The notes under the pieces are model-generated. The model was not told where the DNA came from. It searched no databases and saw only the letters and a program-made list of their open reading frames with translations. The position numbers and the translations under genes are program-made. A DNA stretch of 64,000 nt from Acidaminococcus massiliensis (GTDB lineage: Bacteria > Bacillota > Negativicutes > Acidaminococcales > Acidaminococcaceae): NCBI RefSeq assembly GCF_900095825.1, contig NZ_LT608315.1, positions 1,724,311-1,788,310 on the forward strand, in the 5' to 3' direction. How positions within the stretch are numbered: the first letter of the stretch is position 1; the number at the start of each line of letters is the position of its first letter. Below are positions 4,359-12,667 of this stretch, piece by piece.

Positions 4359-7300
4359 GGGTGTCCCTGAAGGATTCTCAAATTGCCGGGGAAGCAGAAG
4401 GAATGAATGTGTTCGATTCTGCCAGCCTGGAAGCGGGAGACAATGCTGCCATCAGCCTGCAGATGGAAAATTCCCAGGTAAAGGAAGCGGATGGACTCCG
4501 GGTCTCCAGTCTCGGAACCCTTGGGTTGGGGAAGTATGCATCTGTTGCTCTCCAGATGGAAAATTCACCGGTGGATACGGTGATGGGAATCAATGTTGAC
4601 CGTGCCAAAGCCACCCTGGGGGATCATGCTTCCCTCAGCATTGCAGCCGATGAAAACTCTGCTGCAGCTGAGGGGCAGGGAATCTGGGGAATCAATGCCT
4701 CCGATGCCGGGACCCTTGAAGTGGGAAATGGATACCGGGGTGATATAAAGATTGCCAAAAATCCTGTGGGCGTGGAACTGGTCAATGCCAGTGAAGGGAG
4801 CCGGATCACCATGGGCAGCGATGCCAGGGAAACCCTCCAGGTGGCGGATTCCCAAGGCGGGGTCCTGGGACGGGATGTGATCGGACAGAGCACTCTCACG
4901 GTGGGAGACCGGAGCCATTTGACCCTGCAAGTTTATGGGGAAGGAAATATGAGCCGGAGAGCTGTGACCGGGACCGCAATCAATGGTCAAAGTACGGTGG
5001 TCCTGGGGAACCAGGGAAGCCAGGACCTGGTGCTGGAAGGTGTTGCTGCACGGGTATTCGCCAACCAGGTAAGGGGGCAGTCCACCCTGACCGTGGGCAA
5101 TGGACACCGGAACACCATCCGGATCCATGGGACGGCCGGCGGAGCCTATGCCAATTACTTGTATGCCCAGGATGGCACTTCCCAAATGACCCTGGGGGAT
5201 GGAGGAGTGGAATCCCTTTCTCTGGAGGGGACTGCCGGTTCTCTGGTGGGGAATTCTGCAGTGAATTCCAGCCTGACCGTGGGCAATGGACATACGGCCA
5301 TCCTTACTGTAACCGGAAAAGATTCTGCTGCTTCCACCATTGCAGGAGATGAACTAGCGGTTGCCCCTGCTGCCGGAATCAACCTGAAAACGGGCAGCGG
5401 GTATGCCACCATCATCCGGGCAGAAGGAAACAATGGCAATGTGAACGGGATGTTCGCCGTCAGCGGAGCTAGGGCCCAGGTGGGGGACGGTGCTGTCATC
5501 GATATCCAAGACCGGTATACGGGGAAACAACAGAATGCTGTCCTGTTCGGCATCCGGAATCAGAATGCAGAGGTCAGTTATGGAAGCCATTTGAGAGAGA
5601 CCCTGGCCGGGGAGAATGTTGGAGGTGCCTATGGCATCGTCAGTACCGGAGCCCAGGGAAGGACCCAGGTGGGAAACGATGCCCTGCTGCAGGTGGATGC
5701 TTCTGCCAAGAACACCTTTGGTGTCTATGCGCAGGCCGGCGGTCAAGTGGATTTTGCCGGCAGTGCCGCCATCCAGATGGGACAGGATCAGGATGCCATC
5801 TACAGCACCGGTGAAGGCAGCTCCGTCAGCGCCCTGGGAGCTGGCCGGAAGGTGATCCTGGGAGATTTGGAAGCGGCGGACAAAGGGTCCATCCGGCTGA
5901 ACCTGAACACAGGGGATTCCCTGTTCCGGGGAAAATCCACGGTAAAGGGATTTGAGGCCAACAAAGAGAATGTCCATGGCCCTGTGGCTGCAGCCGCTGA
6001 TGCTTCGGCTCCTGGTGTGACGGAGCTGACCCTGGCCAACGGCGCCCGGTGGGACATGACGGACAGCAGCCAGGTGACGGGGCTGGATCATGCCAACGGC
6101 GGCCTGGTGAACATGCAGTACAATCCGGAATACCAGCGGCTGGATGTGGGCACGTACAGCGGCCAGGACGGGATCTTCCGGATGAAGACCGACCTGGATA
6201 GTGAAACCAGCGGGGACAAAGTATATATGACCGGTGCGGCGGCCGGTTCCCATGGATTGGTCCAGGTCCACGACGAAAGTTTCCTTTTGGGGAAGGAAGT
6301 CACCGGGACCAAGCATCTGCTGCTGATCACCGATGACAGCAAAAAGGCTTCCTTCAGCGGCCTTTCCCTGGACGAAGGGGGCCTGTGGGATGTGACTCCC
6401 ACCATCCAAAACGGCCAGGTTGTCCATGATGTGATGGGGGTGGCGGACGCCAATGACCAGCAATGGTATCTGACCAAACTGACCAAAACCATCAACCGGG
6501 ACACCCGGCCCCTCATTGCCGCAGCGGACAGCCAGTACGGCCTGTACCGGGAAAGCCTGGATACCCTCCGGCAGCGGATGGGGGACCTGCGGTTCTTAAA
6601 GAAAAAGGACCGGGCCGCCGGCCTGTGGGCCCGGATGCGGGACGGGGAATTCAGCGGGGCGGACAGCCTGGATACCCGGTACCACAGCTTCCAATTGGGC
6701 TATGACCAGGCGGCCAACCCCAAGACCGTGTACGGGGTGCTGGCGGAACGGGGCATCGCCTCCCCCAGCTATGCCTACGGGTCCGGGAAGGACCACAGCC
6801 TGGCCGGGGCCCTGTACGGCACCTGGTTCGGGGACAACGGCAGCTACACCGATGTGGTGGCCCGGTACAACCGGGACGACGCCCATGTAAGCACTTACGG
6901 GGGCTATCCGGACCGGGCGGACTGGCGGAGCCATGACATCAGCGCCAGTGTGGAATACGGCCGGACCATCCCTGTTTCGGACAACGGGTATTTTGTGGAA
7001 CCCCAGGCCCAGTTCCAGATGGGGCAACTGGGCAGCTATCATGCGGTCACCCTTCGGGGAAAGACCGTCCAGGCAGATGGGTACGACAGCGCCATCGGAC
7101 GGATCGGATTCGTGGCCGGCCGCCGGGGAAAGGATGCCCGCCATCCTTTTGACTGGTACATCAAAGGGAGCCTGCTCCACGAATTCGGAGGCAGCCGGGC
7201 CCTCCGGTTCACGGCTCCTGACGGAGAGAGCCTGGATACCCATCTGGACAGCCAGGGCACCTGGTGCACCCTGGGCCTGGGAGGCACTTACCGGACCAGC

Positions 7301-7396
7301 CACCGGACTTATCTCTACGGAGACGTGGAACGGAGCTTCGGCGGAGATCTGCAGAAAAAGTGGCAGGTGAATGTGGGGGTACAGTATCAGTTCTGA
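4359..7396 (+). pseudogene. Autotransporter, C-terminal half with beta-barrel
   Basis: 3' part of the interrupted autotransporter. It resumes the passenger with repeats such as LTVGNGH and LGDGG through about residue 700 of this fragment. It ends in a roughly 270-residue autotransporter beta-barrel starting near the LWARMRDGEFSG motif. The final residues NVGVQYQF end in Phe, the signal read by the BAM complex. Without the first half there is no signal peptide; a GTG at 4361 could open the frame but has no strong ribosome-binding site. Part of the barrel coding (6822-6925) recurs as a relic at 1072-1175. The terminator at 7429-7460 follows. Confidence 0.9.
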
Positions 7397-7468: not shown

Positions 7469-7517
7469 GAAAAAAAAGTCACAGTTTTCACATATCTTGA
7501 CAGAGGAGGTGGGGACC

Positions 7518-9105
7518 ATGGAAGGACTGGTGCAGGGATTGACAGGTGTCTTTCAAGCCTTGGAACAGCTCTGGTCCATCGTCCCTCTGCCAACTTTGTA
7601 TCTGGCCGCCATGGCCGGGGTGATCCTGTGGGGCGGCTCCCTCCGGGGGCGGATCTTCCAGCTGGGGGCCCGGGAAGCTATGGGATGGGGCATCTGGGTA
7701 TGGCTGGCCTGGCTGGCCATCCGGCTCCTGCGCCTGACCCTGGTCACGGGCTGGGATACCCTCCATCGTCTGCTGTGGTACGGCTTTTATCCCTGTATGG
7801 GACTGCTGATCTTCTTGGTGGTCTGGATCAGCTATGCCAGCAACCGGAGACCGGAAGACGGGATGCTTCCCCGTTGGCTCCAAGGTCTTTTGATCCTGGA
7901 CCTTCTGCTGGCTGGGCTGGTTCTCACCAACGACTGGCACCAGCAGGTTTTCCGGATCTTCCCCAGTCCGGGCCATCACCGGGATGTATATACCTACGGT
8001 TCCGGGTATTTCCTGATCCTGGGCAGTTACCTGGTCCAGCTGCTGCTGGCCAACGGATGGCTGGCATGGAGAGCCTGGAAGGAAAAATTCAGCTTGCTGA
8101 ACCTGTGGGCTCCTTTGACCATCCTCCTGCTTTACGGGGGATATATTGCCGGGTACATCCTGCGGGTTCCCTGCTGTTTTCGAACTGAATTCGTCTTGCG
8201 GACAGCGGTTTTCGGGTTCCTTTGGATGGAATCCCTGCTCCGGTGCCGTCTGCTGCCGGGGAACAGCCAGTATCGGGACTGCTTCCTCCATTCCCGGTTG
8301 GGACTCCATATCCTGGACCGTCAAGGGCGGACGGTGTACCAGTGCCGGCAGCTGGCTGTCCCTCCGGAAGGGGATTGGCAGCGGCGGACCATGCCCATTT
8401 CCGGAGGTCAGGTGGTGTGGTACCAGGATATGGGGGAACTGCGCAGGCAGAAGGAAAAACTGGAACTGACGGTCCAGACCCTACGGCGGGCCTATGCGCT
8501 GAGAAAGAATTGGGAAAAGATCCGCCGGGAACGGATCAACCAGCAGACCCGGCAGCGAATCTATGCAGAGGTGGAAGGCATCCTCCAGAGCAAGGGGCCT
8601 CTTTTCATCCGGTATGCCCGGACCCTGGAACTGGCAAAGCCGGGGGGAGGAAGGCCGGCAGGTAGTGGCCCGGCTGAACGTGCTGGCCTGCTATCTGAAG
8701 AAACAGTGCGTCCTCTTGCTCCGGGGCCGGGAGGACAATTCCCTACCTTCCCGGGAACTGGTGCTGGCCGTGAGGGAACTGTGCCGGTATCTGGAACGGA
8801 CCGGGCTGAAGACCCTGGTTGATGTCCGTCTGGAAGGGCAGCTGCCGGTGGAAACAGCCCTGGGGTTCTTCCAGTTGCTGGAAGAGGCTTCGGAAGAGGC
8901 GGTGCGCCAGAAAGAACAGTCCCAGATCTGCTGTATCAAAGAAAAACAGGGTGGCTGGGAACTGTCCCTGCTCTGGGATCCGCATCCCTGGGTCCGGGAG
9001 TTTGCCGTCCGGAATCAGGCAAAATATGGTCTGGGACTTTCCTGGCTGGAACTGGAGTATGGGAACAGTCTGGTGCTCCGGAGCCAAAGGAGGGACGGAC
9101 CATGA
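7518..9105 (+). pseudogene. Membrane sensor protein of the two-component operon, frameshifted in a G6 tract
   Basis: The ATG at 7518 follows GAGGAGGTGG. The first ~220 residues hold about seven hydrophobic segments, so this resembles a 7TM-type sensory input domain. A soluble region with a coiled-coil-like stretch (RRQKEKLELTVQTLRR) comes next, and then a domain that looks like a degenerate kinase core (YLKKQCVLLLRG...). The frame breaks at a run of six G (8642-8647): the upstream frame runs into unrelated codons to about 8822, while the proper C-terminus continues in the next frame from about 8650 to 9105. Removing one G gives an uninterrupted 528-residue protein that overlaps the kinase start by four bases. 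Phase variation, recent inactivation or a sequencing error are all possible. Confidence 0.7.
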
Positions 9106-10406
9106 CGGACCTGCTGAAACTGACACCCCTGGTCCGGACAATTGCGATACTGCTGGGCCTTGTGGGACTGCTGAGCCAGAGTCTGCTGATGTATTTCCTC
9201 CAGCCTTTGCCCCGGTTCCAGAACCCGCACCGGAAACTCCTGGAAGGGATGATTTTGGTCCTTCTGGTGCTGCTGGAAGGTGTCCTGATCGAAAAAATCA
9301 GGCTGGATCCGCCGTCAGGGCCAAATCCAGAGAGAAATCTTTTTTTCTTGGTCTTTGGAGGCCTTTTTCTCGTTCTGGCCCTGAGACGGGCTTTGGATCT
9401 CCTACCGGAAACCATACGGGAAAAACGGGAGCAGATTACCGAGTATTCCATCCAGGAAGCTCTCGACAGCCTGGAGGAAGGTGTCCTGATCACCCTGCAA
9501 AATGGGGAACCGGTGCTGATGAACCGGGCCCTGTTCCGGTATACAGAAAGCATCCTGGGGACGGGGATTCGGAACGGCAATGTGTTGTGGCATTTGCTCC
9601 AGGAAGTCCGGCGGCCCGGGCTGTTCCGGGAAAACCAGGGACGGGGGCTGCTGTTCCATCTGCCAGACGGACGTTGGCTCCTGTGTCAGCGGGACACGGT
9701 CTTGTTTGCGCAGCAGACCCATTGGCAGCTGACCATCAGCGATGTAACGGAACTCCAGCAGTTGAACCAGTCCCTGGATGCCCAGAACCGACAGCTCCAG
9801 CAGAAGAATACGGAACTGAAAAAAATGCTCCAGCATGTCCAGGAGATCCAAAGCCGGGAGACCCTCCGGGAAATCCGAACTCGGATCCATGATTTGATGG
9901 GGATGCGGATCAGCCTACTCCAGCAGGTGCTGAACAACCGGGAGTTTGCCGATTACCAGCGGATCATGCCTCTCTTAGCCACGATGCTCAGCGATGTGCG
10001 GCAGGAAATCCGGGTGGATCCCCAGGTGCGGCTGGGAGAGCTGGTATCCCTGTACCGGAAGCTGGGAGTGCTGGTCACCGTGAGGGGAACTCTTCCAAAG
10101 GCTGACTGGAAAGAGGAACTGTATGTGCAGATCATCCGGGAAGCCTTGACCAACGCCATCTGCCACGGCCGGGCCAGCCAGGTGACCCTGGTACTGGGGG
10201 AAAACAGCCTGCTGATCCAGGACAATGGCCTGGGGTGCACTGGACCCGTCCTGGAAGGAGGCGGGCTTGGGGGAATCCGGGAAAAAGTGGAGAGCCGGGG
10301 CGGGACACTGGTCATTTCCGGGACCCCTCATTTTATGCTGAAAATCCGCCTGTTGGCGGAAAAGGAGGAAGGGAAGGACCATGATCCGAATTCTGCTGGT
10401 GGATGA
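9102..10406 (+). CDS. Sensor histidine kinase (NarL/LuxR-partner type)
   Basis: A 434-residue membrane histidine kinase. Three hydrophobic segments fall at about residues 10-33, 48-64 and 80-95, then a PAS-like region (about 115-215), a coiled coil (about 218-250) and a HisKA_3-like dimerisation helix with candidate phosphoacceptor H263 (RIHDLMGMR). The ATPase domain carries EALTNAICHG (N box), DNGLGC (G1) and GGLGGIREKVESRGG (G2). The start overlaps the sensor gene by four bases (ATGA) and the end overlaps the regulator by 26 bases, so the three are translationally coupled. It should phosphorylate the regulator encoded next. The signal is unknown. Confidence 0.85.
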   Translation: MTDLLKLTPLVRTIAILLGLVGLLSQSLLMYFLQPLPRFQNPHRKLLEGMILVLLVLLEGVLIEKIRLDPPSGPNPERNLFFLVFGGLFLVLALRRALDLLPETIREKREQITEYSIQEALDSLEEGVLITLQNGEPVLMNRALFRYTESILGTGIRNGNVLWHLLQEVRRPGLFRENQGRGLLFHLPDGRWLLCQRDTVLFAQQTHWQLTISDVTELQQLNQSLDAQNRQLQQKNTELKKMLQHVQEIQSRETLREIRTRIHDLMGMRISLLQQVLNNREFADYQRIMPLLATMLSDVRQEIRVDPQVRLGELVSLYRKLGVLVTVRGTLPKADWKEELYVQIIREALTNAICHGRASQVTLVLGENSLLIQDNGLGCTGPVLEGGGLGGIREKVESRGGTLVISGTPHFMLKIRLLAEKEEGKDHDPNSAGG

Positions 10407-10998
10407 CCAGAAAATCCTGTTGAATGGGCTGGCCAGGCTGCTGGAACCTTATGAAGACCTGGAAGTGGTAGGGGAAGTGCCGTTTTCAGAAATGGTGGAG
10501 ACGGCCTGTGCCCGACTGGACCCCCAGGTGGTACTCATGGATATCTGCATGGAAGGGAAAACCAGCGGGATCGAGAACACCCGGAAGATCCGGAAGCATT
10601 TTCCCCAGATCAAAGTCATTATCATGACCGGGTTCCAGGATGTGCATTTTGTGGAACTGGCCCGGGAGGCCGGAGCGGACAGCTTCATTTACAAAGAAAG
10701 CGCCGCGGACCAGTTCGTGGACTGCATCCTCCGGACCATGGCAGGGGAGCATCTGTTCCCGGATGTCCAGGAACGGACCACCTTCGGATTCTACAACGCC
10801 ACCCTGACCCAGCGGGAAATCCAGATCCTGCACCTGGTCTGTCAGAATTTGAGCTACCAGGAAATCGCCGAACGGCTGCATCTGACCCGCCGGACCGTCA
10901 GTTTCCATATCAGCAACATGCTCAGCAAAACCGGCCACAAAAGCATCGTGGGACTGGCCGTGGAAGCGGCGGAAAAGGGATATGCGGGAAGAGAGTAA
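10381..10998 (+). CDS. LuxR/NarL-family response regulator
   Basis: A 205-residue two-domain regulator. The receiver domain has the acidic pair D8/D9, phosphoacceptor D54 in VVLMDICMEG, T84 region IIMTGF and the conserved lysine in FIYKES. The C-terminal LuxR helix-turn-helix is clear: LTQREIQILHLVCQNLSYQE followed by IAERLHLTRRTVSFHISN. It starts inside the kinase gene. Four bases after its stop codon lies a perfect 16-bp palindrome (11002-11017), repeated at 13006-13021. The spacing to the promoters suits an activator, so this regulator is the natural candidate to bind them; that link is inference. Confidence 0.92.
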   Translation: MIRILLVDDQKILLNGLARLLEPYEDLEVVGEVPFSEMVETACARLDPQVVLMDICMEGKTSGIENTRKIRKHFPQIKVIIMTGFQDVHFVELAREAGADSFIYKESAADQFVDCILRTMAGEHLFPDVQERTTFGFYNATLTQREIQILHLVCQNLSYQEIAERLHLTRRTVSFHISNMLSKTGHKSIVGLAVEAAEKGYAGRE

Positions 10999-11068: not shown

Positions 11069-12667
11069 ATGAGAAACGGAAAGAAAATCCTGCAAATGGC
11101 GGCTTCTGCGTCCCTGCTTGCCTTTTTGCTGCCGCTCCAGGCCTGGGCCCGTGTGGTGCTGCTCCATACCAACGACATCCACTGCGGGGTGGACAGGAAC
11201 CTGACCCTGGCCCGGGTGGCGGCTTTCAAGAAGCACCAGAAGGCTCAGGAACCCCAGACCCTGCTCCTGGACGCCGGGGACGCCATCCAAGGGGAACCAG
11301 TGGGGAAGCTCACTGACGGCCGGGCCATGGTCCGGATCCTGAATGCTGCCGGGTATGATTTCGCCATCCCTGGCAACCACGAATTCGACTATGGCATGGA
11401 CAATTTCCTGTCCTTGGCCAAAAAAATGAAATGCGGGTACACCAGCTGTAACTTCGTCCGGCGAGATACGGGGAAAAATGTCCTGGAGCCCTACCGGATC
11501 TTCCCATTCAAAGAGCGGAAGGTGGCTCTCATCGGGGTCACCACTCCTGGCACCCTGGTGTCCTCCACGCCCCGGTTCTTCCAGGACGGCAAAGGCCATT
11601 TCCTCTATGGGTTCTGTGAGGACAAAGAGGGGACGAAACTCTATGAAAAAGTCCAGGAAACCGTGGATGCAGTTCGGAAGCAGGGGGCGGACACGGTGAT
11701 TTTGGTGGCCCACCTGGGCAGCGACGGATCCATCCCCGTGTGGAGCAGCAGTGCTCTCTTGGCCCATCTCACTGGGGTGGACGGGATCATCGACGGCCAT
11801 TCCCACGAACAGTATGAACGGCAGCTGCCGGACCGGAACGGGAAACTGGTACCGGTGGCCCAGACCGGCACCAAGCTCCAGACCCTGGGGAAAATGGTCA
11901 TCGAGGACGATGGGACCATCCGGGGCGAACTGCTCCAGGATCTGCCGGAACCGGATCCCAAAGTGGAGAAACTGGTCCGGAAAGAACTGGCCAAAGTGGA
12001 CCAGGCCCTGGCCCAAAAGGTGGGCGAATCTCCCGTGGTCTTGGTGGATTCCCTGGAGGGTCAGCGGGCGGTGCGTCAGAAGGAAACCAATCTGGGGGAT
12101 TTTGCGGCCGATGCCTTCCGGGCGTATTTCAAGGCGGATGCGGCCCTGATCAACGGGGGATCCTTCCGGTCCGGCCTGCCCCAGGGGGTCTGGACCCGGA
12201 AGACCCTGCTGACCCTGTTCCCCTTCGGGAACCAGGCCGTGCTCCGGAGCGTTTCCGGCCAGCAGCTGCTGGATGCTTTGGAACTGAGCGTATCCCATGC
12301 GCCGGAAGAAAACGGCGGGTTCCTCCAGGTATCCGGGCTCACCTTTGTGTATGACCCCACCCTCCCGTCTCCCGTGAGGCTGGATGACCAGGGGAATTTC
12401 GCCGGGATCCAGGGAAAACGCCGGGTGAGCCAGGTGATGCTGGGGGGCAGACCCCTTGACCCGGCGGAAGACTACCTGGTGGCCGGGACCACCTACATCC
12501 TCAGCGACGGCGGCAACGGCTACACCATGTTCCGTGATGCTACCCTGGTGGCCGAACCGGGCCTCTCCGACGTGGATATCCTGGCAGATTACGTCCAGAA
12601 ACAGGGCGTCAGCGAGGCATACCGGAAGCCGGAAGGGCAGGGGAGGATCCAGGTGAATAGGAAATAA
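11069..12667 (+). CDS. Periplasmic 5'-nucleotidase / UDP-sugar hydrolase family
   Basis: A 532-residue exported metallophosphoesterase of the UshA/YfkN type, which removes phosphate from extracellular nucleotides or hydrolyses nucleotide sugars. The ATG at 11069 follows GGAGGTGA with nine bases; an in-frame GTG at 11057 lies inside that ribosome-binding site. The signal peptide ends at LPLQAWA. The metallophosphatase domain shows LLHTNDIH, LLDAGD, PGNHEFDYG and DGHSHEQYE. The 5_nucleotid_C domain starts near residue 340 with ETNLGDFAADAFR and contains NGGSFRSGLP and LFPFGN. It is transcribed alone from the palindrome-controlled promoter and ends at the hairpin at 12668-12694. Confidence 0.93.
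   Translation: MRNGKKILQMAASASLLAFLLPLQAWARVVLLHTNDIHCGVDRNLTLARVAAFKKHQKAQEPQTLLLDAGDAIQGEPVGKLTDGRAMVRILNAAGYDFAIPGNHEFDYGMDNFLSLAKKMKCGYTSCNFVRRDTGKNVLEPYRIFPFKERKVALIGVTTPGTLVSSTPRFFQDGKGHFLYGFCEDKEGTKLYEKVQETVDAVRKQGADTVILVAHLGSDGSIPVWSSSALLAHLTGVDGIIDGHSHEQYERQLPDRNGKLVPVAQTGTKLQTLGKMVIEDDGTIRGELLQDLPEPDPKVEKLVRKELAKVDQALAQKVGESPVVLVDSLEGQRAVRQKETNLGDFAADAFRAYFKADAALINGGSFRSGLPQGVWTRKTLLTLFPFGNQAVLRSVSGQQLLDALELSVSHAPEENGGFLQVSGLTFVYDPTLPSPVRLDDQGNFAGIQGKRRVSQVMLGGRPLDPAEDYLVAGTTYILSDGGNGYTMFRDATLVAEPGLSDVDILADYVQKQGVSEAYRKPEGQGRIQVNRK

Follow-up and report, generated by a model that had tools for sequence, protein, structure and literature searches.

The separate membrane protein UhpC feeds the kinase UhpB. 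In the locus described here the kinase would also have a separate membrane partner, but this partner matches no transporter family in Pfam and is instead a multi-pass protein with what is likely a kinase-like tail. The kinase itself, encoded at 9102, matches UhpB best among the NCBIfam models and NarQ next, although both matches are far below the curated cut-offs (33.8 bits versus 408 for UhpB). The response regulator best matches MctR and MadR, with NarL and UhpA among the 25 matches listed; here too the MctR match is far below its curated cut-off (100.1 versus 300).

With respect to the lesion in the partner gene, two precedents can be considered. The first is bvgS of Bordetella pertussis, which is intact with a run of six C residues (C6) and truncated with seven (C7), a mixed culture of the two having been described; all three Bordetella species tabulated share the C6 tract, which is called phase-variable even though it falls below that paper's own length threshold, so that length alone does not exclude a switch (PMC1891110). 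The second is the ordinary frameshifted pseudogene of bacterial regulators, with a single indel, intact relatives and recurrent damage to the system within a genus. The locus resembles the latter in all these features and we see no essential difference, except that the C-terminal half of its sensor has not yet decayed.

The window that we have analysed is a 64,000-nt stretch of the Acidaminococcus massiliensis genome (G000 below), at positions 1724311-1788310 of its contig C4. Read directly, it contains the frame-shifting run of six G residues in a two-component sensor gene exactly as the original prediction had described it; the flanking bases are a C before the run and an A after it. From its ATG at 7518 to the TGA at 9103-9105 the gene spans 1588 nt; since this is not a multiple of three, the sensor cannot be read in one frame. 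Without one base there are 528 codons and a stop, which bears out the predicted 528-residue protein, and the restored frame does end, as was also foreseen, in a four-base ATGA overlap with the kinase gene, whose ATG is at 9102. As deposited, the frame from 7518 continues to the TGA at 8820-8822, and only about 375 of its 434 residues are native, the final 59 or so being off-frame. A second sensor frame, serving the part downstream of the break, is open from 8563 to 9105. Both tblastn with the protein of a congeneric genome (G007) and a profile search return the sensor as two pieces, residues 1-376/377 and 375/376-527, that join at about 8644. The features of the locus are collected in Table 1. 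Directly upstream of the sensor (4361-7396) is a gene for a repetitive protein of 1011 aa whose end, judged by eye, is autotransporter-barrel-like.

Table 1. Features of the sensor-kinase-regulator locus (window coordinates; Gnnn, genomes compared)
Feature	Position	Strand	Remarks
Shine-Dalgarno-like GAGGAGG before sensor ATG	7503..7509	+	read directly
Sensor gene, frame-broken	7518..9105	+	homologous over full length to proteins of 529-535 aa in G001, G004, G006, G007
Sensor layout: membrane domain, PAS-like region, coiled coil, kinase-like C-terminal domain	7518..9105	+	domain reading partly inferred
Sensor product as deposited, 434 aa	7518..8822	+	read from sequence
G6 run, site of frame change	8642..8647	+	exceeds the aligned site of 4/4 intact relatives by one base
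Sensor C-terminal remainder, other frame	8649..9105	+	residues 375/376-527; signature of purifying selection, omega 0.200-0.226
GGAGGAAGG then GTG 8665 in downstream frame	8646..8667	+	putative internal start, suggested by the bases alone
AAAGGAGGG, Shine-Dalgarno-like site of the kinase gene	9086..9094	+	read directly
Histidine kinase, 434 aa	9102..10406	+	IHDLMG and REALTNA motifs; membrane domain 36 codons shorter than in relatives
Net 108-nt in-frame deletion in kinase gene	9309..9359	+	alignment gaps of 18 + 90 nt, borders uncertain
NarL/LuxR-type response regulator, intact	10381..10998	+	92-94% identity in 4 genus genomes, 78% in G005
5'-nucleotidase/UshA-like protein	11069..12667	+	in the same 6/9 genomes as sensor, kinase and regulator

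The deletion in the kinase gene is seen against G001, G004, G006 and G007; most of the stretch that is missing here is present in the G005 protein as well. Being in frame, it may have left a functional protein. A simple hydropathy count gives three membrane segments in the window kinase and three, five and four in those of G007, G004 and G001, respectively, so the number of segments lost is uncertain. The C-terminal part of the kinase is 80-83% identical in four relatives; the H-box and N-box motifs are present, with HATPase_c matched at E 0.003 (18.4 bits, against a cut-off of 26.4). Both domains of the regulator, Response_reg (73.1 bits) and GerE (54.2 bits), score above their cut-offs (30.2 and 23.5), and this gene is intact in all six genomes that carry it, although in G001 it sits on a different contig from the kinase gene. 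The identical distribution of the 5'-nucleotidase and the signalling genes suggests either a functional link or one shared island.

The sensor protein itself is probably not an active histidine kinase. Residues 38-189 of the N-terminal piece encoded in the window match HisKA_7TM (PF16927) weakly, at E 0.012 and 15.9 bits against a gathering cut-off of 28.6, and a full-length relative (L003) has no Pfam match up to E 1. Unlike the HisKA_7TM histidine kinases, which this weak likeness recalls, the sensors of the genus have C-terminal domains without the phospho-acceptor His and the N-box Asn. Where the kinases have RIHDLMG and REALTNAI, the four genus sensors have RIYEEVE or RIWQDVE and EEASEEAV or EVTSEAAV. 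The acceptor His is found in none of the nine sensors aligned (one of them, L034, is cut short) and the N-box Asn in none of the four genus sensors, while in the sister-genus homologue L033 an Asn lies close to that column of the alignment. An LKKxC motif is kept in eight of the nine, in the very domain that the frameshift removes. In a profile comparison (E 3.1e-4, probability 39%) the sensor C-terminal domain aligns, in order, with the dimerisation and ATPase regions of the neighbouring kinase; taken with the order of secondary structures in a low-confidence model, this makes it likely that the C-terminus is kinase-like. The sensor would then be a degenerate kinase partner through which a signal from the membrane or PAS part reaches the active kinase. 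The model in question, an AlphaFold prediction for an intact relative with two full-length relatives and the window N-terminal piece aligned, has a mean pLDDT of 47.9 and a pTM of 0.25, which is too poor for a fold search. A sequence search of the PDB gave no match up to E 1, and a literature search on degenerate 7TM kinases returned none.

Outside the genus, a profile search located sensor homologues in six genomes from four other genera of the family. These six homologues each have one open frame, 537-1304 aa long, one of them being cut by the end of its sequence stretch. In at least one of these genomes (G025, L032) a kinase gene similar to that of the window comes after the homologue. In five of these proteins (L032, L034, L035, L036 and L037) the membrane part is preceded by a long N-terminal extension, perhaps a solute-binding-like domain to judge by eye.

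For the genus we have compared nine Acidaminococcus genomes, one per species and including G000. The sensor is present in six of them, as a single open frame in G001, G004, G006 and G007. Against all four of these intact orthologues the tract base is the one frame-changing gap, their aligned DNA being one base shorter at 8642; the other gap is of six bases. The longest G run at this place is 3 in G006, 5 in G007, 5 in G001 and 3 in G004, so the G6 tract is not a feature that the intact relatives have kept. The remaining carrier, G005, has its sensor split into two frames at a different place, far upstream (residues 200-206 approximately), where the stretch holds T5G4. This genome is a draft, 85% complete and in about 150 contigs, and its break may therefore be an assembly fault or an error. 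A further scan of genome contigs gave two loci, in A. fermentans WCA-389-WT-5B (= G006) and in uncultured Acidaminococcus RUG075 (= G001); a pattern scan of viral contigs gave no match.

The sequence downstream of a long-standing break should show relaxed constraint, and this was not found. By the Nei-Gojobori method, the comparison of the window sensor with its four intact relatives gave omega values of 0.215-0.251 upstream of the break and 0.200-0.226 downstream of it. Both ranges fall inside that among the relatives themselves (0.138-0.268 for both pieces). Constraint being equal on the two sides, the break must be either too young to have decayed or an artefact; put differently, selection on the downstream part has not lapsed for any time that could be measured, which leaves a recent break, a switching one or an artefact. 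The gene does have the hallmark of a pseudogene, a frame broken where four of the five other carriers in the genus are intact, but such a reading would fit the constraint data only as a very recent event.

It is on the whole probable that a real and recent insertion of a single base at the G run knocked out the sensor, as an ordinary loss in a dispensable system. Polymerase slippage would have produced the insertion, in an ordinary stretch rich in G where two of the intact relatives have G5. The ribosome would run off-frame past the tract and halt at 8822; the product would retain its membrane and PAS-like input part but lack the kinase-like tail (residues 376-528, approximately), its means of pairing with the separate kinase or of controlling it. 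The kinase gene keeps its own AAAGGAGGG and its product is probably still made, though perhaps in smaller amounts, as translation would now halt 280 bases upstream. The resulting system may be silent or constitutive. In favor of a recent loss are the absence of the extra base from the intact relatives, the absence of any other frame lesion and the undiminished constraint on both sides. The apparent lesions elsewhere in the system (in the G005 sensor, the G006 kinase and the window kinase) would point the same way. None of the age-related evidence is specific, however, as an error or a switch would also look recent. Moreover, the intact regulator in all six carriers and the conserved C-terminus of the kinase would argue against dispensability, and for an output half that still matters.

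The distribution of the system across the genus nonetheless bears on its dispensability. At thresholds of E 1e-3 for the sensor, 1e-10 for the kinase, 1e-20 for the regulator and 1e-50 for the 5'-nucleotidase, none of the four had a match in G002, G003 or G008. In a midpoint-rooted tree of two conserved proteins these species are split between the two sides; a single loss is therefore insufficient and more than one loss of the signalling system is likely, although the pattern of presence and absence may instead reflect gain by transfer. Where the system is present it is not always whole: in A. fermentans WCA-389-WT-5B (G006) the kinase gene has one in-frame TAG (L015, 8316-8318) in place of a CAG in G007, in a frame that is otherwise open. 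Only three of the nine genomes (G001, G004 and G007) have open frames for sensor, kinase and regulator alike, and the system is broken or not found in the other six. To judge from these genomes it would be a fragile system, lost repeatedly and by different lesions across Acidaminococcus, and the window lesion probably survived because the system is dispensable. Such recurrent and differently caused damage to one signalling system goes beyond the original observation. If the window lesion is real, it is one more element in a picture, small but consistent, of a genus that drops the same system time and again, and repeated loss, if real, would serve as a natural experiment on the role that a multi-pass, kinase-like partner plays for a histidine kinase separate from it. 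Literature searches on Acidaminococcus species, on two-component systems and histidine kinases and on homopolymer phase variation gave no title on the sensor locus.

We rank second the explanation that the sixth G is a base-calling or assembly error and that the real sensor gene is intact, in which case all that would follow is a correction to the annotation. This has a rather low probability in our estimation, even though a single homopolymer indel is what such an error classically looks like when the gene is otherwise clean and under constraint. In addition, a 464-kb sample of G000 contains 168 N, either assembly gaps or withheld bases. The quality of this sample was assessed against 480 kb of G007, with ORF sets that were made mechanically and may include antisense shadow frames. 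Of the G007 ORFs, 145 were covered well enough for comparison and 12 rows were flagged as frame breaks; in a second count, 142 aligned ORFs kept a single intact frame through 85% or more of their length. The latter span, unshifted, 36 G/C 6-mers, 289 G/C 5-mers, 50 A/T 6-mers and 20 A/T 7-mers, which speaks against an error-prone assembly, although a set chosen for its intactness and made mechanically bounds the error rate only loosely. A run of at least five bases lies within 30 bases of the break in 5 of the 12 flagged rows, and it is a G/C 6-mer at the sensor only. Among the other flagged rows, two represent one place in a 382-aa gene and two a single 662-aa gene broken twice, and the remaining seven were read by eye as antisense shadow frames, joined neighbours or weak pairs. 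The reverse ORF scan flagged 5 rows among 153. The G000 assembly seems to be accurate in general and not riddled with homopolymer errors. The same system is, furthermore, struck by lesions other than homopolymer indels, namely the TAG of the G006 kinase gene and the deletion in that of the window. In view of the 142 intact ORFs and the independent lesions in other species, the standing of equal contender that the original prediction gave to a sequencing or assembly error looks too high.

A reversible phase variation, in which slippage of the tract toggles the sensor within the population in the manner of the C6/C7 alleles of bvgS, comes third and is improbable. The precedent is a direct one: there too a six-base G/C tract lies in a two-component sensor gene (PMC1891110), and the addition of a base throws the reading out of frame and cuts the protein short. 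The G5 of two intact relatives and the continued constraint on the downstream frame also count in favor of a switch. However, the bvgS account has C6 as the intact state, the same in three species, and both alleles in one culture, whereas in the window sensor six bases mark the broken state, a single sequence is known and the tract is not conserved, being interrupted in two of the four intact relatives (longest G run 3). The break in the G005 sensor, at its different place, is a further point against a switch at this tract.

Nor do the run statistics resemble those of a contingency locus, which should keep its tract in related species (cf. the runs of 3, 5, 5 and 3 above) and have one whose length or frequency exceeds chance. 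Common in absolute number, GGGGGG nevertheless occurs only 22 times on the two strands of the window (16 G6 and 6 C6 runs), compared to a mean of 203.9 in 100 dinucleotide shuffles, so that such runs are about ninefold rarer in window positions 1-64000 than predicted, and there is no G or C run of seven anywhere in it. The 464-kb sample of G000 has 115 G/C runs with a length of six, three with seven and one with eight, and the four that reach at least seven all lie outside the intact ORFs compared. With six-base runs rarer than in the shuffles and none longer, the tract is without any statistical sign of a contingency locus or of selection for instability. The homopolymer phase-variable signalling proposed in the original prediction is therefore unsupported by these measurements, the tract being short, depleted, interrupted in two relatives and G5 in two, without being refuted by them. 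Were the break reversible, the sensor would be a case of phase variation in the signalling of a gut commensal. Still somewhat harder to credit is a wider form of the analogy with bvgS, namely that the sensor of the genus has been silenced repeatedly by reversible single-base slips, at the G run in the window and in a stretch holding T5G4 in G005, and that such a switch sets the response of a separate UhpB-like kinase, and perhaps that of the neighbouring 5'-nucleotidase and autotransporter.

Finally, it is very improbable that the break is bypassed (by a +1 slip on GGG-G) or put to use (by initiation at GTG 8665 behind GGAGGAAGG, yielding a two-chain sensor), for although the bases would allow glycine codon re-pairing on GGGG, a Shine-Dalgarno-like stretch precedes a GTG in the right frame and C-terminal constraint persists, the sensor is one chain in the four intact relatives and one open frame in each of the six sister-genus homologues, the tract is not conserved and the GTG follows at a mediocre distance of 10 bases.

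Outside the window, the 382-aa gene (of which the G007 sample has two copies) and the 662-aa gene mentioned above are frame-broken in G000 at about 1882871 and at 1885226-1885435 of contig C4; neither gene is broken at a run of at least five, and both are probably mobile elements.
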